Positions 28,166 through 49,064 of a stretch of 64,000 nucleotides of DNA are shown here, piece after piece (position 1 is the first letter of the stretch; every line of letters begins with the position of its first letter). The stretch is from NCBI RefSeq assembly GCF_000378105.1, contig NZ_KB899252.1:62001-126000 (forward strand), written 5' to 3'. This DNA comes from Rubritalea marina DSM 17716. GTDB lineage: Bacteria; Verrucomicrobiota; Verrucomicrobiia; Verrucomicrobiales; Akkermansiaceae. The translations under genes and the position numbers were made by a program. Below the pieces are notes generated by a model. That model had not been told where the DNA came from and did not search any database. It saw only the letters and a program-made list of their open reading frames with translations.

Positions 28166-28559
28166 TTGCCTAATATAAATAGACTTCAACTTACGCCCCT
28201 CTAAATGCTGGGGTTTGAGACGCCCTAACTCGCGCTAGGAAATAGTCGAAGCCGAAACTAACACTACAAAATCTAACAAAAACCAGCAAGATCTATATAC
28301 CGGAAAAAACCAGCTCTAGCCAAAGAGGAGATACCATGAGAGCGCCGGGCACCCAAAGGAGGCGACATCGATGGAACAACGCATGACTCATGCAGAGGGG
28401 AGGAATTCTATCATCAGTGCTGGATGCCCGACTACACAAGTATACACAATTTAACAATCCCGGGTCAGACGATCTGTCTCAAAAAAACACCAATCCATCT
28501 CACAGAATAATCAATATGGTTTGACTAATGAGCTCACAAATAGGACAAAGCATGTTGAA
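28166..28559 (+). other. Gene-free stretch with a possible structured RNA and two tiny ORFs
   Basis: No conventional gene is visible. CGGGCACC (28346-28353) can pair with GGATGCCCG (28422-28430, one bulged A), closing a ~85-nt element that contains the hairpin GCATG-ACT-CATGC (28382-28394). Two micro-ORFs with good Shine-Dalgarno sequences overlap it: 28336-28386 (16 aa, behind AAGAGGAG) and 28371-28454 (27 aa, behind AAAGGAGG). It could be a leader of the downstream AraC gene, a small RNA or a leader peptide. No known RNA family was recognised. Confidence 0.35.
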
Positions 28560-29597
28560 ATGAACCTCATCCCTCGAACAACCTTCAGCACAGACTCGAT
28601 CGCCTCAGGCAATCGCTATGAAGTTTTTCGAGATAGCATTTCAGTGCTCTTCGACCTGGAACTCCAAGAGAAAAAAACAGAAGCAAATTTCTACGCCCAC
28701 CTCGACGCCGCCATGATTGGCCAAACCATGCTGGCCAACACCAGATCCACTGGAGCAATCTACAAACGCTCCAGAAAAGCGCTCTCCGCTGACGGTATCG
28801 ATTCAATCATGGTGCAGCTCTACCTGTCGGGAGCCACAGACTTTGATAGCCCGCAGATATACTCAGAAGTACTCCAAGGAGACATTATCGTCTACGATCT
28901 AGCCAAACCCGTAGCCAATAACAACACAAACTTCAACAACCTCTCAATCCTCTTTCCACGCGAACTCATCGAATCTTACCTCCCCACTGTGAGCCGGTGG
29001 CATGGCCAAGTTCTCCCTCGCAATCGCCCTCTCACCAAACTCCTAAAGCAACATATGATTTCGCTCCACAAATTAGGTGGAGAACTCACCATCGAAACCA
29101 GCGTCTGCACCCAACGCACACTACTCGACCTCGCAAGCTCAGCACTCCAACACTCGGCCGACATACTCCCCAAACACGCCGAAACCCTCCCAACCGCGTT
29201 ACTCATCGAAATCAAACAGTTCATTCGCAAGAATCTACATAAATTCGACCTCTACCCCTCCACCATCGCCAGCGCCTTCCACCTTTCACGCGCCCAACTC
29301 TACAGAGTCACCGAGCCGCTAGGGGGGCTGTCCTCACACATACGCGAGCAACGCATGCGCCACGCACTGCAGCTCATCCAGTCAGCTCAGCACCACCACC
29401 TCAGTATTGCCGAAATCGGCTATCAATGTGGCTTTAGCTGCCCCAATTCTTTTTCTCGCAACTTCAAAAAGTTCTACAACTTTAGCCCACGAGATGCCCG
29501 TAGCGCCCCACACCTCGCGCTCAAAGCTGCTAACGAGTCTGGCATCAACGGCCCAGACCGCAGTTACGAATCCTGGGTGAAATCACTCTCTCTTTAA
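28560..29597 (+). CDS. AraC-family transcriptional regulator (probable regulator of the FAAL/FkbH cluster)
   Basis: 345 residues from the ATG at 28560 (a TTG at 28521 is in frame and possible). The N-terminal ~200 residues form an AraC-binding-like ligand/dimerisation region (RTTFSTDSIASGNRYEVFRD, SILFPRELIESYLP). The C-terminal ~100 residues carry two helix-turn-helix motifs: STIASAFHLSRAQLYRVTEP and IAEIGYQCGFSCPNSFSRNF followed by FSPRDAR. It lies upstream of the biosynthetic cluster in the same orientation, across a repeat-bearing 700-bp region, so it probably controls it. The ligand is unknown, and no Shine-Dalgarno is visible before either start. Confidence 0.88.
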   Translation: MNLIPRTTFSTDSIASGNRYEVFRDSISVLFDLELQEKKTEANFYAHLDAAMIGQTMLANTRSTGAIYKRSRKALSADGIDSIMVQLYLSGATDFDSPQIYSEVLQGDIIVYDLAKPVANNNTNFNNLSILFPRELIESYLPTVSRWHGQVLPRNRPLTKLLKQHMISLHKLGGELTIETSVCTQRTLLDLASSALQHSADILPKHAETLPTALLIEIKQFIRKNLHKFDLYPSTIASAFHLSRAQLYRVTEPLGGLSSHIREQRMRHALQLIQSAQHHHLSIAEIGYQCGFSCPNSFSRNFKKFYNFSPRDARSAPHLALKAANESGINGPDRSYESWVKSLSL

Positions 29598-30307
29598 CAG
29601 AGCCTCCCCACCTTAGGTCAATGTCCGACCTAAACTTCAGAGCAGCCGCTACTGAAGCCCCTCTTCAATGAGTCATTTTGTAGACTCTATGGCGATTCAC
29701 CGAATCGCTAGTTTCACGTTTTTGACGCTATGTCGCACTAGTACAGAAAACTTAATTATCACATCTTCATATCACGCTAAAAACTAACAGTTAGCATGTT
29801 ACACTAATTCGACACTTGGTGATTACTGTATCAACGAAGACTCAATTCAAGATCCACACTTCAAACTTCAACCAATAACAAACACCCAACAAAATACATC
29901 TCAAACAAAAAATAAAAAAGCAATACTCAAACAACCAGAAACAAACCAAAATACAATATATCACTAACCACCATTAACATGAGAAAATCGCATAAACAAC
30001 ACAATCTAACATATTTATATATAGTAGGATATTACGGTTCAAAATAAACAACATTAAAACCCACAACAAAGCCATATCCATTGTTAAACAACGAGTTACA
30101 ATAACACCGCCCACACTAATAACTAACAGAAAACAGTTACAATCTGCTAACTATTTGAGACAAACCAACTAAAAAAACAACAAAGCAAGATGATATACCT
30201 AAATCACTTACAAAACACCACTAACCAAAACCAGAACACCACATCTAACATATTTATAGACACATCCTAACAACCCACCCAATAGTCTAACAAACAAGAT
30301 ACATCAC
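29598..30307 (+). promoter_or_regulatory. 710-bp AT-rich, G-poor intergenic region before the biosynthetic cluster
   Basis: No gene is seen. At its start are inverted repeats: TTAGGTC/GACCTAA (29613-29633) and GCGATTC-ACC-GAATCGC (29692-29708). From about 29870 to the start codon the plus strand is A/C-rich with few G (7 G against 35 C in 30181-30300). It has an exact 16-bp direct repeat ATCTAACATATTTATA (30004-30019, 30243-30258), CACTAACCA twice (29962, 30219) and nine copies of CTAAC. This could be a long unstructured leader, Rho-loading sequence or an array of AraC sites. No confident -35/-10 was found. Confidence 0.5.
30004..30258. repeat. Pair of exact 16-bp direct repeats (30004-30019 and 30243-30258)
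   Basis: ATCTAACATATTTATA occurs twice in the same orientation, starts 239 bp apart, upstream of the first cluster gene. The second copy ends 49 bp before the start codon. Direct repeats in promoter regions are how AraC-type dimers usually bind, and an AraC gene lies just upstream. Confidence 0.6.
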
Positions 30308-32089
30308 ATGAAAAACCTACCTATCATCACAGCAAATTGCTCCAACTACGCTGACATAGTCTTGGAGCGAGCCAAACAAACCCCTGAACGTCCAGCCTAC
30401 TCATACCTAGAAAACGGTACGACTGCCACCCAATCACTCAACTACCGCGAACTCTCGGAGCAATGCCAACGCGGCGCGAGTAGACTGCAAGAATACGACT
30501 GCTCTGGTGAACGCGTACTCCTGATCATGCGTAGTGACCTTGATTATAGCATCGCATTCCTGACTTGCATGCTATCAGGAGCCACAGCGGTAACCACCAT
30601 CGTCCCAAGCACCGCTGAACAAGTCAGAAGACTCAGCTCAGTAGCTTCCAACGCATTGCCTAAGTTCGCCATCCTACGCGACTCCGACCGGGAAAAGCTC
30701 GCAGACCTCTTTGCCGCACACCCAACGCTTCAAGACATCACACTCATCAGCTATGAAGAGCTAGCTCTGGGAGATAGAAGTCAATGGGAACGTCCAGACA
30801 CAACTTGGAATGATCCAGCATTCTTACAATACACTTCTGGATCCACCTCCTCCCCCAAAGGGGTCATTGTGACCCACCAAAACCTGAAGGACATTGGGGC
30901 GTATCACGAAGAAGTCTTTGGCATGCACTCTGAAGACATTGGCATCACATGGCTCCCCCAGTCTCACGACATGGGTTTGATTCACGGCGTATTGCAGCCA
31001 CTCTACAGCGGCTACCCTAGCTACATCATGACGCCCACAGCCTTCTTAAAAAGGCCGTTGAATTGGCTAAAGGCGATCTCTAAGTATCGAATTTCTGTCA
31101 CGATAGCGCCCAACTTCGCTTTTGACCTCTGCGTAGAGAGTGTGAAGGACAAAGATTGGCCTGACCTAGACCTGTCAAACCTCACCTGTATCCATAACGC
31201 AGCTGAGCCAATCAGACTCAACTCCTACGAGGCATTTGCCGAGACCTTTGCTCGAGTAGGATTCAGGAAAGAAGCCCTAGGCAGCGCGTACGGCATGGCG
31301 GAGTCTACCCTCGCTGTGACCAGCACACGCCGCTCTGAACTCTATGCTTACAAATCAGTAGACGCCGAATCATTTGCTAATGGTATCGCGACCGATCAGC
31401 TGGACCCTAAACGCAAATCGCTCAACATCGTGGGATGTGGCACCCCAGCTGGTGAGGTGAAACTCTGCATTGCAGAACCCAATTCCCTGACAGAACTGCC
31501 TCCCAATCATGTCGGAGAGCTTCTCCTTCAAGGCCCAATCATCACGCAAGGTTATTGGAACAATGACACGGCGACTCATGAAGCATTCCAACTAAATACA
31601 ACAAACGGCAATGGGCCTTACTTTAGAACTGGTGACCTAGCCTTCATCGATGAAACTGGCGAACTCTTTATCACGGGCCGCACCAAAGACCTCATCATCA
31701 TCAATGGGAAAAACCATTCCCCGCAGGATATCGAACTCACTACCGAAGAAAAATTCTTCGCCATTCGTCCACGCCAAGTCTCGTGCTTCTCGATTCAAGC
31801 AAATGATGCCGAGCTCGTTGTGGTGATCGCTGAAATTAAACGAGAATGCACCCGCGACACCAACCCGGAAACACTCGCCAAGCAGGTTATGAAACACCTG
31901 GCTCGCGAACACCAAATTCCCATCTTCGAGATCGTTATCGTGAAACGTGGTGAATGCCCAAAAACAACGAGTGGCAAAATCCAGAGGCAGCGCAGTAAGC
32001 ACATGTATCTCAATCAGGAGTACACAGTCGTCACTAGCTTCCGAAACCCTATGTTCAAGAATACTCAAGCGTCAGAATTAGTCTCCTAA
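30308..32089 (+). CDS. Fatty acyl-AMP ligase (FAAL), stand-alone
   Basis: 593 residues. It is an ANL-superfamily adenylating enzyme of the FAAL branch (FadD32-like), which activates fatty acids as acyl-AMP and hands them to a carrier protein instead of CoA. Motifs: YTSGSTSSPKGV (175-186), the FAAL-typical WLPQSHDMGLIHGVLQPLYS and SPTAFLKRPL-like PTAFLKRPLNWLKAISKYR, GSAYGMAESTLAV, YFRTGDLAFIDETGELFITG, RTKDLIIINGKNHSPQDIE, and KTTSGKIQR holding the C-terminal lysine. First gene of the cluster; the next starts 42 bp downstream and encodes an ACP-bearing enzyme that could accept its product. The chain length is not predictable. Confidence 0.9.
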   Translation: MKNLPIITANCSNYADIVLERAKQTPERPAYSYLENGTTATQSLNYRELSEQCQRGASRLQEYDCSGERVLLIMRSDLDYSIAFLTCMLSGATAVTTIVPSTAEQVRRLSSVASNALPKFAILRDSDREKLADLFAAHPTLQDITLISYEELALGDRSQWERPDTTWNDPAFLQYTSGSTSSPKGVIVTHQNLKDIGAYHEEVFGMHSEDIGITWLPQSHDMGLIHGVLQPLYSGYPSYIMTPTAFLKRPLNWLKAISKYRISVTIAPNFAFDLCVESVKDKDWPDLDLSNLTCIHNAAEPIRLNSYEAFAETFARVGFRKEALGSAYGMAESTLAVTSTRRSELYAYKSVDAESFANGIATDQLDPKRKSLNIVGCGTPAGEVKLCIAEPNSLTELPPNHVGELLLQGPIITQGYWNNDTATHEAFQLNTTNGNGPYFRTGDLAFIDETGELFITGRTKDLIIINGKNHSPQDIELTTEEKFFAIRPRQVSCFSIQANDAELVVVIAEIKRECTRDTNPETLAKQVMKHLAREHQIPIFEIVIVKRGECPKTTSGKIQRQRSKHMYLNQEYTVVTSFRNPMFKNTQASELVS

Positions 32090-32131
32090 AGCAACGTCGC
32101 CACTTAATAACCTCAAACAGAATCTATTAAA

Positions 32132-35100
32132 ATGCAGTTTAATAGCCTTGTAGATGCGTACCTACACCACGCCAAGCAGACACCAAATAACGTAGCATTC
32201 CGCTACTTTTCTCAGCACCTCAAAGAGGAAATCATACTCACTTATGTTGAGCTAATCGATCAATCGAAGCGCTTTGCTAACAAACTCTCACAGATTGCCA
32301 AAGCTGGCGACCGAGTACTGATACCTAGCCCCACACATGAGGCATTCATGCCCTCAGTCATTGCCTGTTGGATGCTAGATCTCACCCCCGTCCCTAGTTA
32401 TCCTCCCAAAAATGAGAGCGACCGAACTGAGCTCAAACGGCTGGCACACATCATCCAATCAGCGTCCCCATCCATCATCCTAGGACCAGCAGAGACCCTG
32501 ACCCAGCTCCAGCCCATCACTGGCGGCTCCACCTGTCTTAGCTACGAGCAATTAGCACTCTCCCCAATCGCCACAAACAACTTCAGTGCGACCGCCGCGA
32601 CTTCACCTAGTCCAGCCCTGCTACTCTATACCTCAGGCTCCACTGGTTCCCCAAAAGGCGTGCCCATCACCCATGAGATGTTAGTGAGCAATTACAGTCA
32701 GTTTATCATCCAACAAAATATCACACAAAAGGATAAGACTGTTGTGTGGTTGCCAAACTGTCACATCGCAGGGTTCTACATGCGCAGCATTCTCTCACTA
32801 GTCGGAGGAGAAACCATTGTCTACCAAGCCGCGGATTTCATCATGAAGCCCCTCACTTGGCTCCAGCTTATTAGTGACCACAAGGCCACTCTATCAGCAG
32901 CTCCAAACTTTGCATATGAACTCATTGCAGCAAGTTCAATCAGCGAAGAGCTTGATCTAAGTTCCTGGCGTATGGCCATCTCTGGGGGAGAAGTGATCTC
33001 GTCGAACACTGTGGCAAGATTCCTCAGCGCGCTTGAAAAGCTCAAACTACCTCAGCATTGCTTTACTCCATATTATGGCATGACGGAGACACTATGCACC
33101 AGTGTGCAAGACTCAGAACACCCACCAAAGCTTGCTCAGCTCTCCAGAGAAAAACTCCTAGAAAATATCGTCGAGCTCCATGAAGAGGTTTCTGAAGACA
33201 GCATCGCCTTCCTCAGTAATGGCAAACTTCTTGGAGGAACCAAACTACAGATCGTCAATCCGAACACAGAAGAACCAACCCTCGACGGACACATCGGCGA
33301 AATCACGCTTCAAGGAGACAGCATCACATCTGGCTACTGGAACCTCAGTCACTCAGACACCCAGACCTCAGATGGTTACTTCCGCACTGGAGACCTCGGT
33401 TTCATGATGGATGGCGAGCTTTTCATCACCGGCAGGCTCAAGGAGCTCATCATCGTCCGAGGAAAGAATTACTACCCTCAAGACATCGAGCAAAGCCTGC
33501 TTTCAGAATACATGGAGCACGCCATAGCCGCCCTTGCCGCATACGAAGTCGATGACAACGGACGAGCAGCTCTGGGCATTTCAGTCCAAATTGATGAGCA
33601 ATCTGAGTTGGCAACTTCACAACAAATCGAGCAAGGGATCGTGCAACTGATCAGTTCTGCATTCGGCATCCGCCCTTTGGTCAAGATTTGGCAATACTCG
33701 CAAATGCCGCGCACTAGCTCGGGCAAAATCAAGCGCGCAGCTTGCGCCAAGAACCACCAGGACGATCTCAGCCTGATCGATAGACATGACGCCGCAGCTC
33801 CCGAGGCCTTGACCAACTTAGCCCCCCATCAGGATACTTTGGAGACTCTGAAGCAACACATCGCTGAGCTACTGGCACTCCCAGCTGAAGTCCTTGGAGA
33901 CCACCATGCCATTAACTCCCTCGGTCTTGATTCCGTACAATTGGTCCAGCTTGCCAGCAAACTTAGCCAATCACTAGAGCATCAATCCGCTATAGACCTC
34001 TCGATTTTCTATCAAGACATTTCAATTGAAGATCTAGCAACACTTCTAGACTGCCCTCCCTCAAATGGAGCACACAAGTTAGAGTACACCGAGGAACTTG
34101 CCAAACTAAGCAGACTCTGCGCGAGCTACCAGAAAGCCGAACTAGCCAAGTTCGGCAAGGGAATCTTTATCACGGGCGCCACCGGCTTTCTAGGCTCCTA
34201 CCTCTTGCGTGATTTACTTCAGAACACCGAACAGCAAATTTACTGCTTAGTGAGAGCATCCGACCCCACTGCAGGCATGCAACGGATCATACAAAGCCTC
34301 TCACAAATTACTGAATGGGAAACTCAAAAACACCATTGGTCCGACCGCATCCAGGTTCTTTGTGGCTCACTCGATGCTCCATACTTTGGCTTGAACGCTG
34401 AAACATTCAGCTCACTAACAGAACAAATAAGCTCTATCTATCATAACGGAGCAAACGTCAATTTCGTGGCCCCCTATAGCCAACTCTATCAGGTCAATGT
34501 GGCCTCGAACCACACCATCATCGAGCTCGCGTTAGCGGCGGGAAATATACCAATCCACTATGTCTCCACTGTCGCGGTGTTCAACTCCCCAGACCGCGAC
34601 CAATTTCCGACTATTCGGGAAGAGGACTTCCTCCCCTCGCCTGACAGGATCTTTAGCGGCTATGCCAAAACCAAATGGGTAAGCGAAAAGATCTACCAAC
34701 ACGCAGAGTCGCTCGGCATGCAAGTAGCGGTCTACCGCCCTGCTCTCGTCATGGGAGACTCTCAAACCGGATTCTGCCACACTGATGACTTCCTTTGCCG
34801 CTTCATCAAAGGATGTATCGATCTCGGACACTTTCCGAAGCTCGATTTACACATCGATATGACCCCTGTAGATTACGTCTCCCAACAAATTATTGACCTG
34901 TCGCTCGACAGACGATCCATCGGACAACAATTCCACATTCTCAACGACAATCCAATCACCTTACCCGACTTGGTGGATTGGCTGACCCGGCAAGGTCACT
35001 CATTAGAATTGATGGATTCCGATCAATGGCACCAAAAGCTTAGCTCAGAATTGCCTACCTGGAATGCGCTCTATCCAGTCTACCCATTTCTGTTGGAGCA

Positions 35101-35305
35101 AATCCCCTGCTCTGAAGAACACAGTGAGACTATCTTGCCGTTTTTCACCAAGCGCGGCCTCAACCTCGATAGCAGGAAACGCAAAGCCAATGCTCCACAC
35201 GGCACCTCATGCCCACCTGTAGACCACCAACTGCTCAACCGCTATTTCGAGTACTTCCAAGACATCAACTTCATCTCAAACCCAAATCAAAAATCAAAAG
35301 CCTAA
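32132..35305 (+). CDS. FAAL-like ligase, acyl carrier and thioester reductase fusion
   Basis: 1057 residues with three domains. Residues 1-~545 are a second FAAL-type adenylation domain (YTSGSTGSPKGVPITHEML, WLPNCHIAGFYM, YYGMTETLCTSV, YFRTGDLGFMMDGELFITGR, RTSSGKIKR). Residues ~570-650 form a carrier protein with phosphopantetheine Ser601 in NSLGLDSVQL. Residues ~680-1050 form a short-chain-dehydrogenase-type thioester reductase: ITGATGFLGSYL (NADPH-binding), HYVSTVAVF and YAKTKWVSEKI (catalytic Tyr-Lys). This adenylation-carrier-reductase order is that of carboxylic acid reductases: an acid is activated, loaded and released as aldehyde (or alcohol after a second reduction). The next gene starts 13 bp later. 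Confidence 0.9.
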   Translation: MQFNSLVDAYLHHAKQTPNNVAFRYFSQHLKEEIILTYVELIDQSKRFANKLSQIAKAGDRVLIPSPTHEAFMPSVIACWMLDLTPVPSYPPKNESDRTELKRLAHIIQSASPSIILGPAETLTQLQPITGGSTCLSYEQLALSPIATNNFSATAATSPSPALLLYTSGSTGSPKGVPITHEMLVSNYSQFIIQQNITQKDKTVVWLPNCHIAGFYMRSILSLVGGETIVYQAADFIMKPLTWLQLISDHKATLSAAPNFAYELIAASSISEELDLSSWRMAISGGEVISSNTVARFLSALEKLKLPQHCFTPYYGMTETLCTSVQDSEHPPKLAQLSREKLLENIVELHEEVSEDSIAFLSNGKLLGGTKLQIVNPNTEEPTLDGHIGEITLQGDSITSGYWNLSHSDTQTSDGYFRTGDLGFMMDGELFITGRLKELIIVRGKNYYPQDIEQSLLSEYMEHAIAALAAYEVDDNGRAALGISVQIDEQSELATSQQIEQGIVQLISSAFGIRPLVKIWQYSQMPRTSSGKIKRAACAKNHQDDLSLIDRHDAAAPEALTNLAPHQDTLETLKQHIAELLALPAEVLGDHHAINSLGLDSVQLVQLASKLSQSLEHQSAIDLSIFYQDISIEDLATLLDCPPSNGAHKLEYTEELAKLSRLCASYQKAELAKFGKGIFITGATGFLGSYLLRDLLQNTEQQIYCLVRASDPTAGMQRIIQSLSQITEWETQKHHWSDRIQVLCGSLDAPYFGLNAETFSSLTEQISSIYHNGANVNFVAPYSQLYQVNVASNHTIIELALAAGNIPIHYVSTVAVFNSPDRDQFPTIREEDFLPSPDRIFSGYAKTKWVSEKIYQHAESLGMQVAVYRPALVMGDSQTGFCHTDDFLCRFIKGCIDLGHFPKLDLHIDMTPVDYVSQQIIDLSLDRRSIGQQFHILNDNPITLPDLVDWLTRQGHSLELMDSDQWHQKLSSELPTWNALYPVYPFLLEQIPCSEEHSETILPFFTKRGLNLDSRKRKANAPHGTSCPPVDHQLLNRYFEYFQDINFISNPNQKSKA

Positions 35306-35317
35306 ACCCTAACTATT

Positions 35318-38300
35318 ATGAACAAATTATCACTCAACGAAATCCGCAACTGGGTCACCAACTACATTGCTGAAACCCTCCTCGAAGAACCCGAAGACAT
35401 CCACCTTTCTCAATCACTCGATGATCTAGCTCTCGACTCGATGAGCGTGGTGCGCATGGCTGGAGAACTCGAAGAACTCCTCGGCGGCGTCGAGGTAGAA
35501 GCATCATTGATGTACGAATATGACAGCCTCGATACACTGTGCGAACAGCTCGAAATCATGCATGCTGGTCAGCTTTCTCGAAACCAAGAGAAAGGAACTC
35601 CGCTACACTGCACCATCTGCGCCAGCTTCACCGCTGAGCCCGTAGAGGAATCGGTCAAATACGCACTCAGCAAACTTGGATTTAGCCCACAGCTCACCTT
35701 CTCACCCTACAATCAGGTCTTCCAAGAATTACTCAACCCACAGAGCACCCTCGCGAAATCTAGAGACGACATCGCAGTGCTGATGATCCGCATCGAAGAT
35801 TGGTTCCGCTTCGAGGCTGAAGCCGTTGCTCCGAACAAAGCTGAAGCAACAGTCCAGGAATTCATCCAAGCACTCTCTTACTTTGCCCAACAAGTATCAG
35901 GAAAACTCATCTTAGCACTTTGTCCACACACCGCCGACCGTGTCCGCCACCTCGGCCTAGCAGACTTCCTAGGTAAATGGGATCAAGAGATCTTAGACTC
36001 TCTAGCCATCCTCCCCAATGTGCAAGCACTCGACCTTCGAAATCTAGACACCCGCTACGAGCTCCGCAAGGTCTACGACAGCGCGCGCGACCAGATTGGC
36101 CATATTCCCTTCTCACCAGAATTCTACACCGCAGCGGGCTTGGACCTCTGCAGAACCATGAACACCTTGATACAGACCACCCCCAAGGTGCTCGTAGTCG
36201 ACTGCGACAACACTCTCTGGGGAGGAGTCGTTGGCGAAGACGGCCCCAATGGAATTTCCCTAAGGCAAGGCTTCAAAGCGTTCCAAGAATTTCTCATCAG
36301 GCAGCAACAACAAGGAAAGCTAATCTGCCTCGCGAGTAAAAATAATGAAGCCGATGTCTGGTCAGTATTTGATCAGAACTCGGAGATGTTACTCACTCGC
36401 GAACACATCGTAGCAAGCAAGATCAACTGGAATCGTAAATCTCAAAACATCCTAGAACTTGCCGATGAGCTGCAGCTGGGCGTGGACAGCTTCATCTTTA
36501 TCGATGACAACCCCGCCGAGTGTGAAGAGGTAAGCTCCGCCCTACCCAATGTCCGCTGCATCCTCTTCCCAAATGACGAAAAAAACGCTCAAAGCTTCTT
36601 TTCTAACCATTGGAGTTTCGATCAAGCCGCAATCACTCAAGAGGATAGCAAGCGCACGCAAATGTATCGCGAAAACCAACAGCGCAGCCAAGCTCAAGGT
36701 GCTTCAAAAAGCTATGAAACCTTCCTTGCTGAGCTCGCAGTGCACACTGAGATCTCACCCCTCAATGACGCAGACATCGTTCGTGCGGCCCAACTCACCA
36801 TGCGCACCAACCAATTCAACTCCACCACCCTCCGCATGTCTGAAAATGAAATCCGCGAGTACACCAAAACGGATGGGCAGTGGATCCACACTGTCAAAGT
36901 CAGCGATCGCTTCGGCGACTACGGCTTCGTGGGCATGCTGCTCTGCAAGGTGGAGGACAAGACTCTGGTCGTCGATGGCTTCATGATGAGCTGCCGCGTT
37001 CTGGCGAAACAAGTCGAACAAGACATGCTATCCCATACTCAAACACTTGCAGAAGAGCATGACCTTCACTCTGTGTCACTACGCTTCAAAGCCAGCGAGC
37101 GCAACCAACCAATCAAAATCTACTTTGATAGCCTCGATCACATCTACCAAGAACTAGATGGCGACCTCTTGGCTTTAAACATCCCAATCAACGACATCCC
37201 GGCTGCGATCAAACGCTCCACCAAACAACGCGTTACCGAAGCTGACACTGCGACTCCGGCATCCGGAAAACCTACAAACACCCAGAGCAGCTCTTTGGCA
37301 GCGCACCACGCGCATACCGAGCTAGCCAAGCTACAAGGCGACATCGATCGATTCATCACCGAAATCCGCGCTGGCCAGAAAATGAAGCGTGGTAAAATGA
37401 AGACAGAATTCATCGCCCCACGCACCTCATGGCAGAAGAAAATTGCTTCCATCTGGTCCGATATCCTTGGCGTCGACCGCGTCGGCATCTACGATAGCTT
37501 CTTTGACCTCGGTGGCGACTCGATCCGCGCAGCCGAAGCATTCTCTCGTATGTGGGAGCTCGGAGTCCCAGATTCCATCTCACTCATCAACATCCCTGAA
37601 CCAACCGTGGCCATGCTCTGTCAGGCAATTGAAGATGTGAAAGCCGGTCGTGAGCCCACCCTCATCTCCGATGTCTTCTCCCTCGCTGAGGAAGCCCAAG
37701 TAGCTGAAGACATTCGCAACGAAGACTTCGATATTCACAGCTATGACACCCCCATGGATCAGGTCTTCCTCACCGGTGGCACAGGCTATGTAGGCGCCTT
37801 CCTCATTGCGGAAATCATGGTACAAACAGATGCTCAAGTAATCTGTTTGGTGCGTGGAGCCACCGCCGAGGAAGGCAAAGAAAGAATCAAGCGCAACATG
37901 GCCAAATACCACCTGTGGGAAGAAAGCTATGAAGCACGCGTTGAAGTCATGCTTGGCGAACTCACTGAACCATTCCTTGGATTAGGAGAGGAGCCTTTTT
38001 TCGCTCTAGCAAAGCGTATCGACACCATTTTCCATAGTGGCGCTTGGGTGAATTTCGTCTACCCTTACGACAAACTCAAGCCAGCTCACATTGACGCCAC
38101 GGAAACCGTGATGCGCCTCGCCACATCGGATAAAGGGAAGCCAATTGCTTTCCACTTCATCTCCACCCTCGGCGTCATCATGTCCACAGGATACAGCGAT
38201 GAAGACGTGGTGATGGAAGACGCGCCACTCGAACACATCGAAGGACTTCTCAATGGATACGAGCAAGCAAAACATGTGGCGGATAAGATGGCCTACATCG

Positions 38301-38890
38301 GCATGACCGAACGCAACATACCCACTGCGATCTACCGCCCTGGCATGGTTGGTGGCGTAAGCACCACCGGTGAGTATCACAAGACTGATGAGTTCCTCTC
38401 CTCCTTCTATAAAGGGTGTCTGCAGTTAGGAAGCTGGCCCCTGCTAAATACCACCTGGGAGGTAGTGCCAGTGGATTTCATCACCAAGGCAATCGTGCAT
38501 GGCACCAAAGACCCCAAAAACCTCAATCACGCATACTTCACCCTGCACCCTGAACCCACGATGGTCGAAGAATATGTCCGTTTCTTCCAAGACTACGGAT
38601 ACCCTGTGCGCGCCCTCTCATGGGATGTGTGGAAGCGCGAGCTCATCAGCCAAGGTGCCACCAAGCTTCGAGACAATGCTCTATTCCCATTTGTCGACTT
38701 CATCCGCGCACTCGACACCGAGCAAGTTCGCTTCCCCGCCACCGACCGTAGTAACTTCAAGCGCCTCGTCGAGGCTGCGGGAGTCGATGTCCCATCGCAA
38801 ACAGAAATCATGCGTCGCTACCTCGAATTCTTCATCCAACAAGGATTTGTCGAGGCCCCATCACAAACACTAACAACATCTAACTTATAA
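35318..38890 (+). CDS. ACP-FkbH-GNAT-ACP-thioester reductase megaenzyme
   Basis: 1190 residues. Order: carrier 1 (1-80, Ser41 in LALDSMSVV); FkbH-type region with an N-terminal companion domain (~95-285: SFTAEPVEESVKYALSKLGF, SPYNQVFQELLNP) and a HAD phosphatase core (~290-410: VVDCDNTLWGG at 294-304, FIFIDDNPAEC); GNAT-like segment (~460-640: MRTNQFNSTTLRM, SDRFGDYGFVG); carrier 2 (~700-780, Ser735 in LGGDSIRAA); thioester reductase (~810-1190: LTGGTGYVGAFL, YEQAKHVADKM). FkbH proteins load glyceryl from 1,3-bisphosphoglycerate onto a carrier. Here both carriers and a reductive release domain are fused to it. No adenylation or condensing domain is present. Loading of a glyceryl unit is inference from family. 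Confidence 0.88.
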   Translation: MNKLSLNEIRNWVTNYIAETLLEEPEDIHLSQSLDDLALDSMSVVRMAGELEELLGGVEVEASLMYEYDSLDTLCEQLEIMHAGQLSRNQEKGTPLHCTICASFTAEPVEESVKYALSKLGFSPQLTFSPYNQVFQELLNPQSTLAKSRDDIAVLMIRIEDWFRFEAEAVAPNKAEATVQEFIQALSYFAQQVSGKLILALCPHTADRVRHLGLADFLGKWDQEILDSLAILPNVQALDLRNLDTRYELRKVYDSARDQIGHIPFSPEFYTAAGLDLCRTMNTLIQTTPKVLVVDCDNTLWGGVVGEDGPNGISLRQGFKAFQEFLIRQQQQGKLICLASKNNEADVWSVFDQNSEMLLTREHIVASKINWNRKSQNILELADELQLGVDSFIFIDDNPAECEEVSSALPNVRCILFPNDEKNAQSFFSNHWSFDQAAITQEDSKRTQMYRENQQRSQAQGASKSYETFLAELAVHTEISPLNDADIVRAAQLTMRTNQFNSTTLRMSENEIREYTKTDGQWIHTVKVSDRFGDYGFVGMLLCKVEDKTLVVDGFMMSCRVLAKQVEQDMLSHTQTLAEEHDLHSVSLRFKASERNQPIKIYFDSLDHIYQELDGDLLALNIPINDIPAAIKRSTKQRVTEADTATPASGKPTNTQSSSLAAHHAHTELAKLQGDIDRFITEIRAGQKMKRGKMKTEFIAPRTSWQKKIASIWSDILGVDRVGIYDSFFDLGGDSIRAAEAFSRMWELGVPDSISLINIPEPTVAMLCQAIEDVKAGREPTLISDVFSLAEEAQVAEDIRNEDFDIHSYDTPMDQVFLTGGTGYVGAFLIAEIMVQTDAQVICLVRGATAEEGKERIKRNMAKYHLWEESYEARVEVMLGELTEPFLGLGEEPFFALAKRIDTIFHSGAWVNFVYPYDKLKPAHIDATETVMRLATSDKGKPIAFHFISTLGVIMSTGYSDEDVVMEDAPLEHIEGLLNGYEQAKHVADKMAYIGMTERNIPTAIYRPGMVGGVSTTGEYHKTDEFLSSFYKGCLQLGSWPLLNTTWEVVPVDFITKAIVHGTKDPKNLNHAYFTLHPEPTMVEEYVRFFQDYGYPVRALSWDVWKRELISQGATKLRDNALFPFVDFIRALDTEQVRFPATDRSNFKRLVEAAGVDVPSQTEIMRRYLEFFIQQGFVEAPSQTLTTSNL

Positions 38891-38898
38891 TAACACCC

Positions 38899-39915
38899 AT
38901 GGACAATTCATTAAAATTTGACGCCACTCAAACTGGGTTTTCAGAGTCATTCTATGTACTTTGGAACGACCCAGAGCAGCAACTCTCAATGATCGTACGC
39001 TACGTGCTATTCAACGGTCCCACCGAGGAAACGAAAATCGCTCAAGTTTGGGCCTGGTTCAGAGACCGCAGCCCTGAAGGCAAGGCAGACTTTGCCATCA
39101 AACAAAGCTTCCCTCTCGCCGCTGCACAGTTCGATCAAGGTGAAGAAGGGCTCAATATCGCGCACTCTGGGATCACTCCAGAACGCTGCTGGGGAGAGGT
39201 CAGTAATGGAGAGAACACTCTCCAGTGGGACTTCGAAATGGATGCTTCCACATGCATCGCCGTCGACCGACTCGCCGACGTCTACGATAGCCCTCTATTT
39301 CCAAAGTTCTACTCCCCAGCGTGCAAGCATGCGCTCACCGGCTCGGTCACACTCGACCAACAACAGTACAGTCTCGAACAAGTAGCCGCAAGCGATGGTC
39401 ATTATTGGAATGTACACAACATGCACAGCTGGAGCTGGTGCAATGCCGTTCAGTTCCAAAACAACCCAGACTTCTTATTTGAGGGGATTGGCTTCCATCT
39501 GAATGATTGGGGGCAGCCCTCCGTCTGGCTCACGATTGAATGGAATGGTCAGCGCTACAACTCCAACCTCATTGATGCGATGTACCACAATCGACAACTC
39601 AACAGTTCACTAGATAGCTGGGAGTTTCGTATGGAAAGAAATGAGATCAAATTCGAAGGGACGGTCACCGCCAAAGCGGAAGACATGATACTCATCACCC
39701 ATCCACTCCCTGATGGTTCCTCGCTTTACACGCACATTTCCTACAACGCCGACCTCGTCATCCACGTGTTCGAAAAGCGTGAAGGCGAATGGGTCAAGGT
39801 AGACACCGCCATCGCCACCGACACCGCCTCCTTCGAAGTCACCAAGACTGAGCGCAACCCTCACGTGACTAGGGAATTCACAGAAATCGCCGCTGTCATC
39901 AAAGAAACGGTCTAA
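38899..39915 (+). CDS. Calycin-like (AttH/CrtC, tocopherol-cyclase-fold) protein
   Basis: 338 residues without a signal peptide. Beta-strand-rich, with features of the AttH/CrtC calycin superfamily: WAWFRDRSPEGKADFAIKQS, the GHYWNVHNMHSWSWCNAVQF segment (about residues 165-184) in which the HxWSW pattern is typical, and a second beta domain from GIGFHLNDWGQPSVWLTIEW onward. CrtC members hydrate isoprenoid double bonds; AttH-like members have been linked to lipid metabolism. In this cluster it could hydrate, cyclise or simply bind a lipid intermediate. It starts 9 bp after the megaenzyme. Fold is a moderate-confidence call; the reaction is unknown. Confidence 0.6.
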   Translation: MDNSLKFDATQTGFSESFYVLWNDPEQQLSMIVRYVLFNGPTEETKIAQVWAWFRDRSPEGKADFAIKQSFPLAAAQFDQGEEGLNIAHSGITPERCWGEVSNGENTLQWDFEMDASTCIAVDRLADVYDSPLFPKFYSPACKHALTGSVTLDQQQYSLEQVAASDGHYWNVHNMHSWSWCNAVQFQNNPDFLFEGIGFHLNDWGQPSVWLTIEWNGQRYNSNLIDAMYHNRQLNSSLDSWEFRMERNEIKFEGTVTAKAEDMILITHPLPDGSSLYTHISYNADLVIHVFEKREGEWVKVDTAIATDTASFEVTKTERNPHVTREFTEIAAVIKETV

Positions 39916-39964
39916 CCATAGTTCCTACTCGAGCTCGGTGACGAGCTTTGATACATCTATATAT

Positions 39965-40375
39965 ATGCTAACAGACGAATCACTTTCACCACGACAACTG
40001 GCAGAATACATTTACCAATCCTACCAACTCCAAGACTTCTCTCGTTTCGACGAGATCATGACGGAGGACTGTAGCTGGATCATTCCCGGCAACAAAGAAC
40101 TCCTACCATGGGCTGGAGAATTTGTTCACATGGAGATGTTGGATTTCCTCAACATCATCAAAGAGCACCTTGATTTTGAATACTTTACCCCACTGAGATA
40201 CCATGTGGATGGCGAAACCGTCATCGCCGAAGTGGAGGAAAAATTCACCGTAATCAACACTGGCCAAACCGTGGTCAACAAGCTTGTTGCCATCTTTGAA
40301 ACGAAACAGGGAAAGCTCAAAAAATACACTGAGTATTCAGACACTGGCTTGCTCGAACGTGCCGTCAACGCATAA
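39965..40375 (+). CDS. SnoaL-like / NTF2-fold protein
   Basis: 136 residues from the ATG at 39965 (an in-frame GTG at 39938 would add nine residues). It follows the NTF2/SnoaL pattern: an N-terminal helix (AEYIYQSYQLQDFSRFDEIM), TEDCSWIIPGNKELLPWAG, then beta strands (VIAEVEEKFTVINTG, VNKLVAIFETKQGKLKKYTE). Family members are small cyclases, isomerases or dehydratases, or non-catalytic binding domains, common in polyketide clusters. The Asp/His pair needed for SnoaL cyclisation is not certain here. It probably tailors the product of the megaenzymes. Confidence 0.75.
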   Translation: MLTDESLSPRQLAEYIYQSYQLQDFSRFDEIMTEDCSWIIPGNKELLPWAGEFVHMEMLDFLNIIKEHLDFEYFTPLRYHVDGETVIAEVEEKFTVINTGQTVVNKLVAIFETKQGKLKKYTEYSDTGLLERAVNA

Positions 40376-40406
40376 AAATCACTCGCGGGACACCCTCGTA
40401 AGACTC

Positions 40407-41108
40407 ATGCCCATGGACCACATCGAAGTCATCTACTTCCACAAAGACCAGATCAGCTGCGATGTGGATGCCATGGTGCACACACTCACGCCCCAAGAGT
40501 TCGAGCGCCACGAGCGCCTTGCATTCCCCCACCTCAAGCGAGATTGGATCCTCTCGAGAGGTGGTCTCAGGATCCTGCTTGGCAATATTTTGGCACAAGA
40601 TCCTGCTAGCCTGCACTTCGAAAAAAACCGCTATTCCAAGCCCCGCCTCAAAGGAAGCGAGCTGCAATTCAACGTCAGTCACTCTGGGGACTACATTGTC
40701 TACGCATTCACACAGCATCGAGAGCTCGGCATCGACATCGAAAAAACGACCCCAAACTTCGCAAGCCACCGGCTCGCTACTCGGTACTTTTCTGAGGCTG
40801 AATGCCAATCCCTGAACAACCTTACAGAAAAAGAATTTAGCCGTGCATTCTATGCCATTTGGAGTCGCAAGGAAGCGTATATTAAAGCCATCGGCATGGG
40901 GCTATCTGCCGACCTCAAAGCCTTTTCGGTCGACCACCAATCCAGCCGACAAAGCTTTGAATCCCCAACACTATGCATGGAAGCACTGCATCTAGCAGAG
41001 GGATACGCCTCCGCCATCTGCTATCATGGTGAGACGCAGCTCCCAATCACTATTCGCAAACTCACCAGCTTGGCCGCACCAATGCTCAGGACCGCATCAC
41101 TCACCTAG
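40407..41108 (+). CDS. 4'-phosphopantetheinyl transferase (Sfp type)
   Basis: 233 residues from the ATG at 40407 (MPMDHIEVIYFHKDQIS); the frame is open upstream but there overlaps the SnoaL-like gene. Sfp motifs are all present: LQFNVSHSGDYIVYAF (about residues 87-102), ELGIDIEKT (Mg ligands) and FYAIWSRKEAYIKAIGMGL. It transfers phosphopantetheine from CoA to the carrier Ser, here probably Ser601 of the first megaenzyme and Ser41/Ser735 of the second. Its place at the cluster end supports dedicated activation. Converges on the DUF1653 gene with a 12-bp overlap. Confidence 0.92.
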   Translation: MPMDHIEVIYFHKDQISCDVDAMVHTLTPQEFERHERLAFPHLKRDWILSRGGLRILLGNILAQDPASLHFEKNRYSKPRLKGSELQFNVSHSGDYIVYAFTQHRELGIDIEKTTPNFASHRLATRYFSEAECQSLNNLTEKEFSRAFYAIWSRKEAYIKAIGMGLSADLKAFSVDHQSSRQSFESPTLCMEALHLAEGYASAICYHGETQLPITIRKLTSLAAPMLRTASLT

Positions 41109-44688: not shown

Positions 44689-45600
44689 TCAGTCCTTACC
44701 CAGACGTTCCATGCGGTAGATCCGTGGCGTCACCCCCACACGCTTCTTGAAAAAGCGGAAGAAGTAGCTCAGATCGCTCATGCCAACCTGACGTGCCACC
44801 TCAGCAATCGACACCGACGACCCAGTGAGTAACTCACGAGCTTTGGTCTCTCGCTTCCTTGCAATATATTCAGAAGGTCGTATCCCCATCCGGCGATTAA
44901 ATTCATCCGAGAAGTATCCATTACTCATCCCCTCAATCTCACTCAACACCGACAGGCTAAGATCCCCATCGAGATGATTCTCGATATGCTGGAAGGCTTT
45001 GGTGAAACGAATCAAATCGGAACTCAATTGCGCTCCTTCGGCAAACTCTGCCAGCAGAACACTCACCGCCCCTTGGGCTGCAATCTTCTGCTGTAGACTC
45101 AGGTCCTCCAACTTCGTCTCGAATATTAATTGGTTAAAAAACTCATCATCAGCGTCCAGGCTTTTCAAGCCAAAGTTAGGCAAACAGAGCAACAGATTCT
45201 CACAAATCACCTGATGCCACGAACCAAAACCTCGACGAACCGGGAACTCATAATCTGCGAATAAGTCATTACCATTGGAAAGCTTCGCAGTGAAAATGAA
45301 GTAGCATTGCCGGCAATAATGTTCACAGGAATAGTCCACCGATGCGTATGGTGGTATCAGCAACATCTCACCCGGCTTCTGATGATACGTCTCACCGTGG
45401 AAAGAAACACTCTGACAACCCTCTTCAACTATGAGAATTCTAGCAAATGGACTAATGTGGTTTTGAAAATCCCACCACGCACCAAGTGCCACACTATCGA
45501 AGGCAAATACTTTAATTCTAATATGACTGGCGTCTACTTGCACGCCCCATACATACACAAACCAATCAATCACGCCACACACAATATGCGATAAATCCAT
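44689..45600 (-). CDS. AraC-family transcriptional regulator of the sugar-acid operon
   Basis: 303 residues from the ATG at 45600 (MDLSHIVCGVIDWFV); 20 further codons are open upstream. It has a cupin-like N-terminal sensing domain (HISPFARILIVEEGCQSVSF, YHQKPGEMLLIPPYASVDYS) and two C-terminal helix-turn-helices: LSVLSEIEGMSNGYFSDEFN and IAEVARQVGMSDLSYFFRFF, with VGVTPRIYR at the end. Domain organisation is that of sugar-responsive AraC/RhaS-type activators. It is divergent from the catabolic operon with 85 bp between start codons, so a shared control region is likely. The ligand is probably the substrate of that operon. Confidence 0.88.
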   Translation of the reverse strand: MDLSHIVCGVIDWFVYVWGVQVDASHIRIKVFAFDSVALGAWWDFQNHISPFARILIVEEGCQSVSFHGETYHQKPGEMLLIPPYASVDYSCEHYCRQCYFIFTAKLSNGNDLFADYEFPVRRGFGSWHQVICENLLLCLPNFGLKSLDADDEFFNQLIFETKLEDLSLQQKIAAQGAVSVLLAEFAEGAQLSSDLIRFTKAFQHIENHLDGDLSLSVLSEIEGMSNGYFSDEFNRRMGIRPSEYIARKRETKARELLTGSSVSIAEVARQVGMSDLSYFFRFFKKRVGVTPRIYRMERLGKD

Positions 45601-45685
45601 AAAATAGACGAAATTACTTATTACCCAATAGCAACAATCGAGCCTAGTATCATCATTCACCGAACTTCTTAGAACGCTTCCCAGT

Positions 45686-46774
45686 ATGCCTACGATCCAG
45701 CTTCACGACCAACCTCCCCTCCCAAAAAGACCTCGCCCGATATACATCATCGGCGCGGGAAGCATCGTCAAAGACGCCCACCTACCAGCGTATCAAATTG
45801 CAGGCTTCGAGGTACAGGGCATCACCAACAGGAGCAGGAACAAAGCGGAAGAGCTCGCTGAAACATTCAACATCAAGTCCGTCTTTGATTCGGTAGAGCA
45901 GATGGTTGAAATGGCTCCTAGTGACGCGGTCTATGACCTCACTCTACCCGCTAATTATTTCGCTGAAACATTGCGTAAACTTCCAGATGGGGCCGCAGTC
46001 TTAATCCAAAAACCGATGGGGGAAAACCGGGATGAAGCAGAGGAGATCCTAAGAGTCTGTAGGGAAAAAAACCTCACTGCGGCAATCAACTTCCAGCTAC
46101 GCTTCGCCCCCGTCATCTCGATGGCTCGTGATGCCATTGCTCAAGGATTGATTGGCGAACTCACCGATTTCGAAGTGCGCGTCAATGTCGACACCCCATG
46201 GCACCTCTGGGACTTCCTCGATCATGCGCAATTTGCAGAAATTTATTACCACAGCATCCACTACGTCGACATGATCCGCTCCTTCTTAGGAAACGCTCAG
46301 AGTGTGCAGTGCCAGAGCATGGGATCACATACCGCTCCGAACATGGACAAGACGCGCTCCTCATACATTCTAGACTACGGCCCAGACATCCGTGTCAATA
46401 TCCAGACCAATCACCAACACCGGTTTGGTAAAAAACACCAAGAAAGCTACGTCAAATGGGAGGGAACACAAGGTGCGATAAAAGCACAGCTCGGCGTGCT
46501 CATGGACTACCCAAAGGGAGAAGCTGATTGGTTTGAAATCTGCGTATTAGAAGATGGCAAGGATCCCGAATGGCAGAAGCTTCCCGTCAGCGGATCTTGG
46601 TTCCCTCACGCCTTCATCGGCGCCATGGGCAGCCTCATGCACAAGCTAGAAAACCCCTCAGCAGAACTCCCTCACAGCGTGGAGGATGTCATCCACAGCA
46701 TGCGCACCGTAGATGCCGCAGTGCGTTCGTCCCAAGCCGGCGGCATGACTTTCAAGGAACTCACTACACACTAA
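45686..46774 (+). CDS. Gfo/Idh/MocA-family NAD(P)-dependent oxidoreductase
   Basis: 362 residues. The nucleotide-binding motif IYIIGAGSIVKDAHLPAYQ (about 18-36), with a Pro-rich leader before it, opens a Rossmann domain; further motifs are VQGITNRSRNKAEELAETFN, AVLIQKPMGENRDEAEEIL (the conserved KPM/E-K-P motif) and INFQLRFAPVISMAR. Members oxidise or reduce cyclic sugars such as inositol, glucose and fucose at C1 or other positions. It starts the operon divergent from the AraC gene and precedes the importer, so it probably performs the first oxidation to a lactone. Substrate unknown. Confidence 0.88.
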   Translation: MPTIQLHDQPPLPKRPRPIYIIGAGSIVKDAHLPAYQIAGFEVQGITNRSRNKAEELAETFNIKSVFDSVEQMVEMAPSDAVYDLTLPANYFAETLRKLPDGAAVLIQKPMGENRDEAEEILRVCREKNLTAAINFQLRFAPVISMARDAIAQGLIGELTDFEVRVNVDTPWHLWDFLDHAQFAEIYYHSIHYVDMIRSFLGNAQSVQCQSMGSHTAPNMDKTRSSYILDYGPDIRVNIQTNHQHRFGKKHQESYVKWEGTQGAIKAQLGVLMDYPKGEADWFEICVLEDGKDPEWQKLPVSGSWFPHAFIGAMGSLMHKLENPSAELPHSVEDVIHSMRTVDAAVRSSQAGGMTFKELTTH

Positions 46775-46781
46775 AAAACCT

Positions 46782-47873
46782 ATGGAATCCAATATCGTAT
46801 TCGGAGTCGGCCTGCATGCCATTGGAGGGATTGCAGCCTCCACCTGCTTTGTGCCACAAAAGTTCACCTCGAAGTGGTCCTACCAAACATCCTGGATGAT
46901 CATTTTCACAGTAGCATGGTTTATCGCTCCTATTCTCACTGCAGCCCTAACAGTACCTAACCTGTGGCAAGTGATCACCGAGGTAGATCAAAAAGTGCTC
47001 ACCCAAACAACTCTCTTGGGTGGTATTTACGGCTTTGGAGGCATGGCATTTGCCCTAGCCATTCGTCATATTGGTTTCTCTCTAACTTATTCGATTGCTA
47101 TTGGTATTTCAGCGGTCCTCGGCACAGTAATCCCCCCACTCCTAGCGGGCACTCTGATGGAGACCTTCAGCCAAGCAGGCGGCAACATTCTGGTGGCCGG
47201 GTTCCTCATCTCGATCATAGGTATCTGCCTGTGCGGATACGCGGGGGCACTCAAAGAAAAAGAACTCTCTGGCTCAGGTTCCGACTTTGACCTCAAAAAG
47301 GGGCTGAGCTTGGTACTCATTGCTGGAGTCCTCTCGGCGGTATTCGGGATCTCGCTCTCGGTCGGCGCACCTATCGACGCAGTAGCAGCAGACCACGGGG
47401 CGGGAAGCTTTAGTAGCAATGCCACCTACATTTTTGCGATGGGAGGCTCCTTCCTAGTGAACCTGATTTGGTGGTCGGTGGCTCACACCCGACAGCAGAC
47501 ATGGTCAGAGTTTAAGAAAATCCCAAGCAGCGACAGCGGGCGCGGTAAGCTACTGCTCCCCTACTACGGACTCGCCATTCTCGCTGGCATCCTATGGTAC
47601 GTGCAGTTCTTCTTCTACGGCATGGGTCACGTCCACATGGGGGATGCCAAATTCATCAGCTGGGGGATCCACATGGCCATGCTCATCTTCTTTAGTTTTG
47701 GCATCGGCCTCATCCTCAAAGAATGGAAAGGCCTGAGCCTCAAAACCATCACGGTACTCATCGTCGGGCTCTGCATCCTAGTCACCTCATTTGCATGCAT
47801 TACCTACGGCGGCCTCGTAGCGCAACAAGCAGCCGAAGCCTCTGGCAAGCCCGTCGAAGTACCCTCCCACTAA
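46782..47873 (+). CDS. RhaT-like sugar-proton symporter
   Basis: 363 residues with ten predicted membrane helices. It follows L-rhamnose-proton symporter RhaT in length and layout: VGLHAIGGIAASTCFVPQKF at the N-terminus, LGGIYGFGGMAFALAIRHIG, LTYSIAIGISAVLGTVIPPL, LKKGLSLVLIAGVLSAVFGI, and LAILAGILWYVQFFFYGMGH. RhaT belongs to the drug/metabolite transporter superfamily. No rhamnose isomerase, kinase or aldolase is nearby, so the substrate may be rhamnose or another deoxy or acid sugar. It follows the oxidoreductase by 7 bp and must be inner-membrane. Confidence 0.82.
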   Translation: MESNIVFGVGLHAIGGIAASTCFVPQKFTSKWSYQTSWMIIFTVAWFIAPILTAALTVPNLWQVITEVDQKVLTQTTLLGGIYGFGGMAFALAIRHIGFSLTYSIAIGISAVLGTVIPPLLAGTLMETFSQAGGNILVAGFLISIIGICLCGYAGALKEKELSGSGSDFDLKKGLSLVLIAGVLSAVFGISLSVGAPIDAVAADHGAGSFSSNATYIFAMGGSFLVNLIWWSVAHTRQQTWSEFKKIPSSDSGRGKLLLPYYGLAILAGILWYVQFFFYGMGHVHMGDAKFISWGIHMAMLIFFSFGIGLILKEWKGLSLKTITVLIVGLCILVTSFACITYGGLVAQQAAEASGKPVEVPSH

Positions 47874-47906
47874 CAAACTCTAACCTATAGGAAACACCCA
47901 ACCACT

Positions 47907-49046: not shown

Positions 49047-49064
49047 ACCCAGATCCATCCCACC

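Follow-up and report, generated by a model that had tools for sequence, protein, structure and literature searches.

A Rubritalea marina gene cluster with fatty acyl and glyceryl loaders, reductive exits and no condensation or ketosynthase domain

Composition of the cluster

Six genes, gA to gF, occupy positions 30308-41108 of the window, a 64,000-nt stretch of Rubritalea marina DSM 17716 (contig NZ_KB899252.1, positions 62,001 to 126,000), and encode two predicted loaders of fatty acids, one of glyceryl and two domains for reductive release, yet neither a ketosynthase (KS) nor a condensation (C) domain (Table 1). KS or C domains are the usual means by which carrier-protein assembly lines connect their building blocks. 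The operon is read here, tentatively, as one pathway to a reduced acyl-glyceryl metabolite formed without either domain, a reading that is plausible yet short of probable. Carrier-protein lines with a fatty acyl-AMP ligase (FAAL), an FkbH unit and a thioester reductase (TR) are known as a kind; the C-less combination with AttH- and SnoaL-type proteins is new.

The gene set proposed in the initial annotation was borne out by Pfam, NCBIfam and structure models, and family membership supports the loading and reduction chemistry predicted there. Its statement that KS, C and thioesterase (TE) domains are missing also held: the complete Pfam lists of gA to gF contain none of these families at E 0.01. 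Only ~20 residues separate the first acyl carrier protein domain of gC (ACP1, ending near residue 77) from the FkbH unit (beginning near residue 98), so that there is no room for a C domain between them. At the genome level, no C domain was found at E 0.001 in the R. marina genome itself (G000, 95.5% complete) or in the related genome G427, while G428 and G429 have one each (E 0.001), in proteins with C, two adenylation (A), thiolation (T) and TE domains away from the cluster; in G428 this protein lies on a contig other than the cluster contig. A protein with this domain set is thus common to these two metagenome-assembled genomes (MAGs), at loci L086 (G428:C6) and L085 (G429:C177).

Two candidates for a concealed domain were rejected. 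A hidden C or KS domain in gC, suggested by match spans of ~4.75 rather than 3.57 kb at loci L021 and L022, was explained by the gB reductase matching the gC query. A C domain upstream of the cut-off locus L023 was discarded because the C domain of G429 lies on contig C177, in the protein with C, two A, T and TE domains.

Domains and conserved residues of the carrier-protein enzymes

The largest protein, gC, contains two PP-binding stretches and exceeds the NCBIfam cut-offs for both FkbH (TIGR01686, 317 bits against 147) and thioester reductase (TIGR01746, 256 bits against 213). Residues 90-640, modelled from a 32-row FkbH alignment with a pLDDT of 92.8, form three domains. By model comparison the first is SGNH/GDSL-like (1z8h, Z 15.0) and the second belongs to the HAD fold (1u7p, Z 16.9), and 3slr (BF1531) matches the two jointly (Z 25.6 over model residues 1-350). 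The third is the GNAT domain named in the initial annotation, which has no Pfam match and is confirmed by the model, where GNAT chains align with Z ~14 over ~135-160 residues. The first domain of FkbH proteins was named NEX (N-terminal extension) in a 2025 paper (PMC12304814); the SGNH-like domain of gC is provisionally equated with it by its place in FkbH proteins, in a comparison that held no sequence of the malleicyprol synthase BurF.

The conserved residues fit a glyceryl-loading FkbH unit: Asp295, Asp297, Ser340, Lys374 and Asp396 of the HAD domain, as well as Cys559 and Glu567, are identical in all 32 FkbH rows, and Asp397 is kept in 31 of them. Cys296, inside the DxD motif, is a cysteine in 21 of the 32 rows, and Cys559 is therefore the likelier acyl carrier of the unit, judged from the alignment. 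Ser735 of the second carrier domain (a peptidyl carrier protein domain, PCP2) and the reductase pair Tyr981/Lys985, which we take to be catalytic, are kept in all four gC orthologs, as is the ACP1 serine (LALDSM motif) in the three rows that reach it. In the PDB, ACP1 matches Asl1650 and the N-terminal ACP of Pks13, the acceptor of FadD32. Among PDB entries the gC reductase is matched best by MxaA, an alcohol-forming enzyme, although gC could also release an aldehyde.

gA and gB are assigned as FAALs from their best matches and from alignment with solved enzymes over the full length, because the NCBIfam FAAL models score both proteins below their curated cut-offs. gA has an AMP-binding domain, with FAAL models among its best NCBIfam matches (best 25 of 102 families), and its PDB matches include FadD32, FadD23, FadD28 and 3pbk. 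gB combines AMP-binding/FAAL and PP-binding domains with a thioester reductase (TIGR01746, 302 bits against a cut-off of 213; best 25 of 117 families considered). Both ligases have the adenylation core motifs and align over their full length first with 7r7e-g and 3kxw (PDB names 'Polyketide synthase' and 'Saframycin Mx1 synthetase B'), which we take to be FAALs, and then with FadD32, FadD23 and 3pbk. Ser601, Tyr844 and Lys848 of gB are kept in all three gB orthologs aligned.

Folds of the accessory proteins

By sequence, gD matches only the Pfam family Tocopherol_cycl, below its cut-off (19.8 against 26.6 bits), and its profile found a single weak, unrelated match among PDB sequences (E 0.4). 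Four orthologs were used for an AlphaFold2 model (pLDDT 78.5), almost all of which superposes on AttH (2ich; Z 22.2, 274 residues, rmsd 3.6) and also on CghA (Z 22.0), kievitone hydratase (Z 21.6), Phm7, Fsa2 and 25-phosphosteroid lyase (Z 17.4); after the matches of this fold, the next rows have Z of 5.9 or less. The model thus supports the AttH/CrtC-like label given earlier and places gD in a fold family that spans hydratases, lyases and pericyclases. For gE, the SnoaL_2 family scores 33.2 bits (cut-off 27), and for gF the ACPS family of phosphopantetheinyl transferases (PPTases) scores 68.5 bits (cut-off 25). The best NCBIfam match of gF is HetI, below cut-off (102 against 370 bits). HetI serves heterocyst glycolipids. 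gD had no match on plasmids, and a PHROGs search with gD and gE gave nothing better than E 0.1.

Synteny and distribution

A contig scan of 84,980 species by exact matches to six gC peptide patterns, which is not exhaustive, found 39 related loci. In three of them (L021, L022 and L023, in Verrucomicrobia/Verrucomicrobiales MAGs) gC, gD and gE follow one another as they do in the window. With the window included, this order is found at four of four loci, gB is present at three of three and gA at two of two loci whose contig extends that far; L021 starts at a contig end just ahead of gB and L023 starts within gC. L022 has gA and gB directly upstream of gC and a PPTase gene ~5 kb upstream, and the genes between the PPTase gene and gA are read as two-component regulators. 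Identity to the window is 51-54% for gC, 43-44% for gD, 31-36% for gE, 36% for gB (both loci) and 45% for gA of L022. PCP2 (70-72%) and the gC reductase (60-62%) are the best-kept of the segments compared in L021-L023. The junction of ACP1 and FkbH is without a C domain in all three loci covering it (the window, L021 and L022).

Outside these loci the cluster is sparse. No full-length gC match was found in the 11 other genomes of the genus, nor in any other of the 57 relatives searched. The gC profile has matches at 1e-100 in 33 of the 386 genomes from the window's order, the full length being matched only in R. marina itself; the other 32 match only profile positions 88-796, corresponding to FkbH(-PCP), in open frames of 562-3883 aa. 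The gD profile (E ≤0.001) had matches in two of the 387 genomes from the window's phylum, R. marina itself and G339, the latter match (E 2.7e-4, 74 positions) being taken as spurious and not counted. At the same threshold it matched three of 293 genomes from G428's order, namely G428, G427 and G449, where the copy is broken, and at E 1e-8 one of 387 in the phylum of G428 (G428 itself); these genome draws may overlap. The copy in G449 (L068; G449:C22, 15040-17935, minus strand) retains pieces of a FAAL, gC, gE and gD side by side, interrupted by stops and frame breaks, and has decayed. Synteny is thus conserved in L021-L023, but full-length gC is absent from the 11 congeners, and in decayed L068 gE is placed ahead of gD, the reverse of the window order. 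We infer that the cluster is a rare, scattered and losable trait.

Comparison with described systems

No description of this gene set was found in the open-access literature, and no identical cluster, as the initial annotation had supposed. That annotation named no precedent at all; the terminal part of malleicyprol synthase BurF and the vioprolide and corramycin lines are nevertheless close in logic (PMC12304814, PMC10099666), and the cluster is therefore better regarded, by this analogy, as a C-less variant than as something without parallel.

The closest described system is the end of BurF, given as ACP-C-NEX-T-Red (PMC12304814). In that account the C domain makes an ester, reduction yields an aldehyde and a Knoevenagel-type reaction is proposed to close the butenolide; when fatty-acid-derived mimics without the beta-keto group were used, aldehydes could be captured. 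In both BurF and gC, NEX, a T domain and a terminal reductase share one protein and are supplied from an acyl-carrier domain, and BurF releases its product reductively after ester formation. As described, however, BurF has an ester-forming C domain and no HAD/GNAT part, whereas gC has HAD and GNAT domains and no C domain, and the bur chains are polyketides while the present cluster has FAALs and no polyketide synthase.

The vioprolide and corramycin order comes next. Their first modules are described as FAAL-ACP-C-HAD(FkbH)-T, with a C domain that makes the acyl ester (PMC10099666, PMC8949500). They share with gA-gF a FAAL-loaded acyl group and an FkbH-loaded glyceryl group on a T domain; in these accounts they have a C domain and continue as nonribosomal peptide synthetases, whereas the cluster has a separate FAAL, no C domain and a reductase directly after the PCP. 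The vioprolide order also occurs in Paenibacillus xylaniclasticus (L026, 6557-12172), where one protein of 1871 aa carries FAAL-ACP-C-FkbH-PCP.

In many relatives a PCP comes after FkbH, in keeping with the proposed loading of PCP2 by the FkbH unit of gC. In Paenibacillus curdlanolyticus YK9 (L024, 2563-15783) the genes encode FAAL-ACP, an acyltransferase (AT), KS-PCP-C-FkbH-PCP-TR, an ApbA-like and a PapA-like protein, so that FkbH-PCP-TR is not unique to gC; the product may be a reductively released glyceryl ester of a polyketide, to judge by these domains. This locus resembles the cluster in the FkbH-PCP-TR end and in an AMP-binding/FAAL-ACP protein (in L024 with a sub-cut-off C match) and differs in having KS, AT and C domains, with no AttH or SnoaL match in the five L024 proteins scanned. 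In G033, one of the 32 genomes of the window's order with FkbH(-PCP) matches, a 3637-aa FkbH protein (L082) continues with KS, AT, aminotransferase, C, A and TE domains, and a gene for an animal-type haem peroxidase adjoins it.

Two further systems share parts of the chemistry. The elb operon of Myxococcus xanthus is needed for ether lipids, and the wild type showed an aldehyde that elbD mutants did not (PMC9131029). ElbD and gB both join an acyl ligase, an ACP and a reductase on one protein, and the elb operon also includes a HAD protein; ElbD has an acyltransferase domain, whereas gB has no acyltransferase family in Pfam, and no carrier-bound glyceryl is described for the elb operon in that source. 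In tetronate glycerate-utilisation and methoxymalonyl-ACP genes, FkbH and an ACP form glyceryl-ACP (PMC7489565); these routes, as described, go on with a FabH-like enzyme, or with two dehydrogenases and a methyltransferase, none of which is found by Pfam in gA-gF.

A pathway without condensing enzymes and its alternatives

In the pathway favoured here, gF would arm the three carrier domains, and gA would adenylate a fatty acid and load it onto ACP1 of gC. The FkbH unit would take glyceryl from 1,3-bisphosphoglycerate (or 3-phosphoglycerate) by way of the HAD domain and Cys559 of the GNAT region and load it onto PCP2. The acyl group would pass from ACP1 to a hydroxyl of glyceryl-PCP2, for which the FkbH NEX/GNAT region, gE and gD are candidate catalysts, and the gC reductase would release an O-acylglyceraldehyde or the alcohol. 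Separately, gB would turn a second fatty acid into an aldehyde or alcohol, and gE (SnoaL type) together with gD (AttH/CrtC type) might perform an aldol-type cyclisation, a dehydration or the attachment of the second chain. Arming, both loading steps and the two reductions are predicted from family membership and kept catalytic residues; the acyl transfer and the tailoring are conjectural. The FkbH-PCP-TR end of L024 and the BurF line, described as making an ester and then releasing it reductively, count in favour of the pathway, as do the kept synteny and the match of ACP1 to the Pks13 N-terminal ACP. The initial annotation had suggested that the tailoring proteins perhaps join the parts once these are released; this is possible, but the parts are no less likely to be joined while still bound to the carrier proteins.

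Several points weigh against this pathway. The acyl transfer has no assigned catalyst, because no ester-forming domain is present, and the sequence fits release of an aldehyde and of an alcohol alike. The NEX position read as the SGNH nucleophile (placed by eye) is threonine in 27 of 32 rows, in agreement with the remark in PMC12304814 that functional residues in NEX could not be identified. Some FkbH loaders are listed as giving lactyl, not glyceryl (PMC7901079). A C-domain match precedes FkbH in all nine tested relatives with FkbH inside a longer protein, whereas gC lacks one; in one of these (L032) the match is partial and sub-cut-off and is followed by an FkbM methyltransferase. A tenth relative (L034), in which FkbH starts the frame, was left out of this test, and FkbH starts the frame at seven loci of the window's order.

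Phylogenetic analysis of 51 FkbH domains placed the four gC rows in one clade (support 100/99). A wider group, whose support of 93/94 misses the strong mark, unites this clade with L026 and with all but one of the eight starter-type rows, the seven in the group being from the window's order; the 24 other assembly-line rows and the 15 stand-alone rows fall outside it. The nearest neighbour of the gC clade, weakly, is the C-preceded L026 (81/58), the label 'C-preceded' in the tree resting on a long upstream frame and the C domain itself having been tested in the nine relatives. On this placement, gC may act as a glyceryl starter and never receive an acyl group. It could have originated either from a starter-type unit to which an ACP and a reductase were added or from a C-containing module after loss of the C domain; loss of the C domain as the sole origin is weakened, since gC sits with starter-type FkbH in the tree.

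A narrower form of the favoured pathway, which is quite unlikely, is a condensation-free route to a butenolide. gC would itself acylate glyceryl-PCP2 and release 2-O-acylglyceraldehyde, gE would cyclise it by an intramolecular aldol addition in which the acyl alpha-carbon attacks the aldehyde, and dehydration by gD would give a 3-alkyl-5-hydroxymethyl-butenolide; a second chain may be added to this product from the gB aldehyde. A plain fatty acyl group would need help to cyclise, because mimics without a beta-keto group gave aldehydes with BurF as described (PMC12304814), and this need would be the reason for a SnoaL-type aldol cyclase and a dehydrating AttH-type protein. If the butenolide route is true, the FkbH NEX/GNAT region or gD and gE would be ester-forming catalysts of a new class, working between two carrier proteins.

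The best-surviving alternative, possible although rather unlikely, is that the parts are joined off the line: the fatty aldehyde or alcohol from gB and free glyceraldehyde or glycerol from gC would be linked by gD and gE as an acetal, vinyl ether or ether to give an ether-type lipid, with ACP1 and gA carrying a further acyl chain. The two reductive ends and the missing C domain fit release before joining, as does the grouping of the gC FkbH with starter-type domains, and the modelled relatives of gD include kievitone hydratase and 25-phosphosteroid lyase. Ether lipids depend on the elb operon, which likewise combines a ligase-ACP-reductase protein and a HAD protein; in that report, however, the effect of the HAD gene is ascribed to polar effects, and isolated ElbD gave no detected fatty alcohol (PMC9131029). 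Moreover, Pfam found no alkyl-glycerone-phosphate synthase or acyltransferase family in gA-gF, ACP1 and gA stay unexplained, and free glyceraldehyde as the product of a megaenzyme seems wasteful.

It is improbable that both FAAL arms simply feed reductases for a wax, hydrocarbon or envelope lipid, with the FkbH-derived glycerate only as the polar head, as in glycerides or glycerate ester lipids. In gA-gF, Pfam found neither a transporter nor a thioesterase family, and the sub-cut-off HetI match of the PPTase recalls a glycolipid enzyme, but sporadic distribution and decay in one genome favour a dispensable specialised product over a core lipid. Decidedly unlikely, too, is a trans-acting condensing enzyme encoded elsewhere, whether a C domain, a FabH-like enzyme as in tetronates or an acyltransferase. 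With 95.5% completeness such a gene could be missing from the assembly, and a search for the WS/DGAT family is uninformative here, giving no match in the four genomes but none in control genomes either. Against it stand the C-domain counts given above, and the two ketoacyl-synthase matches and one FabH match in the R. marina genome are all on contigs other than that of the cluster. An assembly or annotation artefact that removed a C domain from the window sequence only is extremely improbable, since, although L021, L022 and L023 are MAGs, the C-less ACP1-FkbH junction recurs in L021 and L022 at 51-52% protein identity to the window.

Operon layout and flanking DNA

The six genes are co-directional, with successive gaps of 42, 12, 8, 22 and 31 nt, the last counted from ATG 40407 of gF. 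This ATG is more likely to be the start than TTG 40284, which falls within gE. The AraC-type protein encoded upstream is possibly the regulator of the operon; no AraC-type regulator was noticed in the open reading frame list of L022. Between it and gA lies a stretch of ~700 nt (29600-30307), A-rich and G-poor, that holds two copies of a perfect 16-nt repeat, possibly a regulator site. Whole-window shuffles gave an expectation of 0.01 for such a pair with at most two mismatches, an expectation that is higher in DNA as A-rich as this, and weaker repeats occur in the same stretch at spacings of 114, 257 and 339 nt. Promoter-like and terminator-like sites were not enriched (9 and 12 observed, against 10.9 and 12.5 in shuffles). 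Further along the window (44689-50225), a minus-strand AraC regulator gene faces genes for a GFO/IDH oxidoreductase, a RhaT-like symporter, a solute-binding protein and a class III CoA transferase, perhaps an operon for sugar-acid uptake and breakdown.

Table 1. Features of the cluster and of the DNA upstream of it (positions in the window; domain limits in residues)
Feature	Position	Strand	Description	Basis or remark
AraC-type regulator	28521..29597	+	Upstream of operon	Pfam/NCBIfam
16-nt repeat, copy 1	30004..30019	+	Perfect repeat, upstream of gA	
16-nt repeat, copy 2	30243..30258	+	Perfect repeat	239 nt after copy 1
gA	30308..32089	+	Stand-alone FAAL, 593 aa	Pfam/NCBIfam/PDB matches
gB	32132..35305	+	1057 aa: FAAL ~1-545, ACP 571-639 (Ser601), TR 678-1048 (Tyr844/Lys848)	
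gC	35318..38890	+	1190 aa: ACP1 12-77, FkbH, PCP2 ~695-760 (Ser735), TR 815-1177 (Tyr981/Lys985)	
gC FkbH subdomains			SGNH-like NEX ~92-286, HAD ~283-437, GNAT ~472-640	
gD	38899..39915	+	AttH/CrtC-fold protein, 338 aa	Structure model
gE	39938..40375	+	SnoaL-like protein (NTF2 fold), 145 aa	GTG start as called; in-frame ATG 27 nt further
gF	40407..41108	+	PPTase, 233 aa from ATG 40407	Open frame from 40284

Implications

If the acyl and glyceryl parts are joined, a joining catalyst of a sort not known for such lines would have to lie among or near the six proteins, and a new lipid or signal molecule would also be indicated. Both the product and the joining chemistry of the cluster may thus be new.

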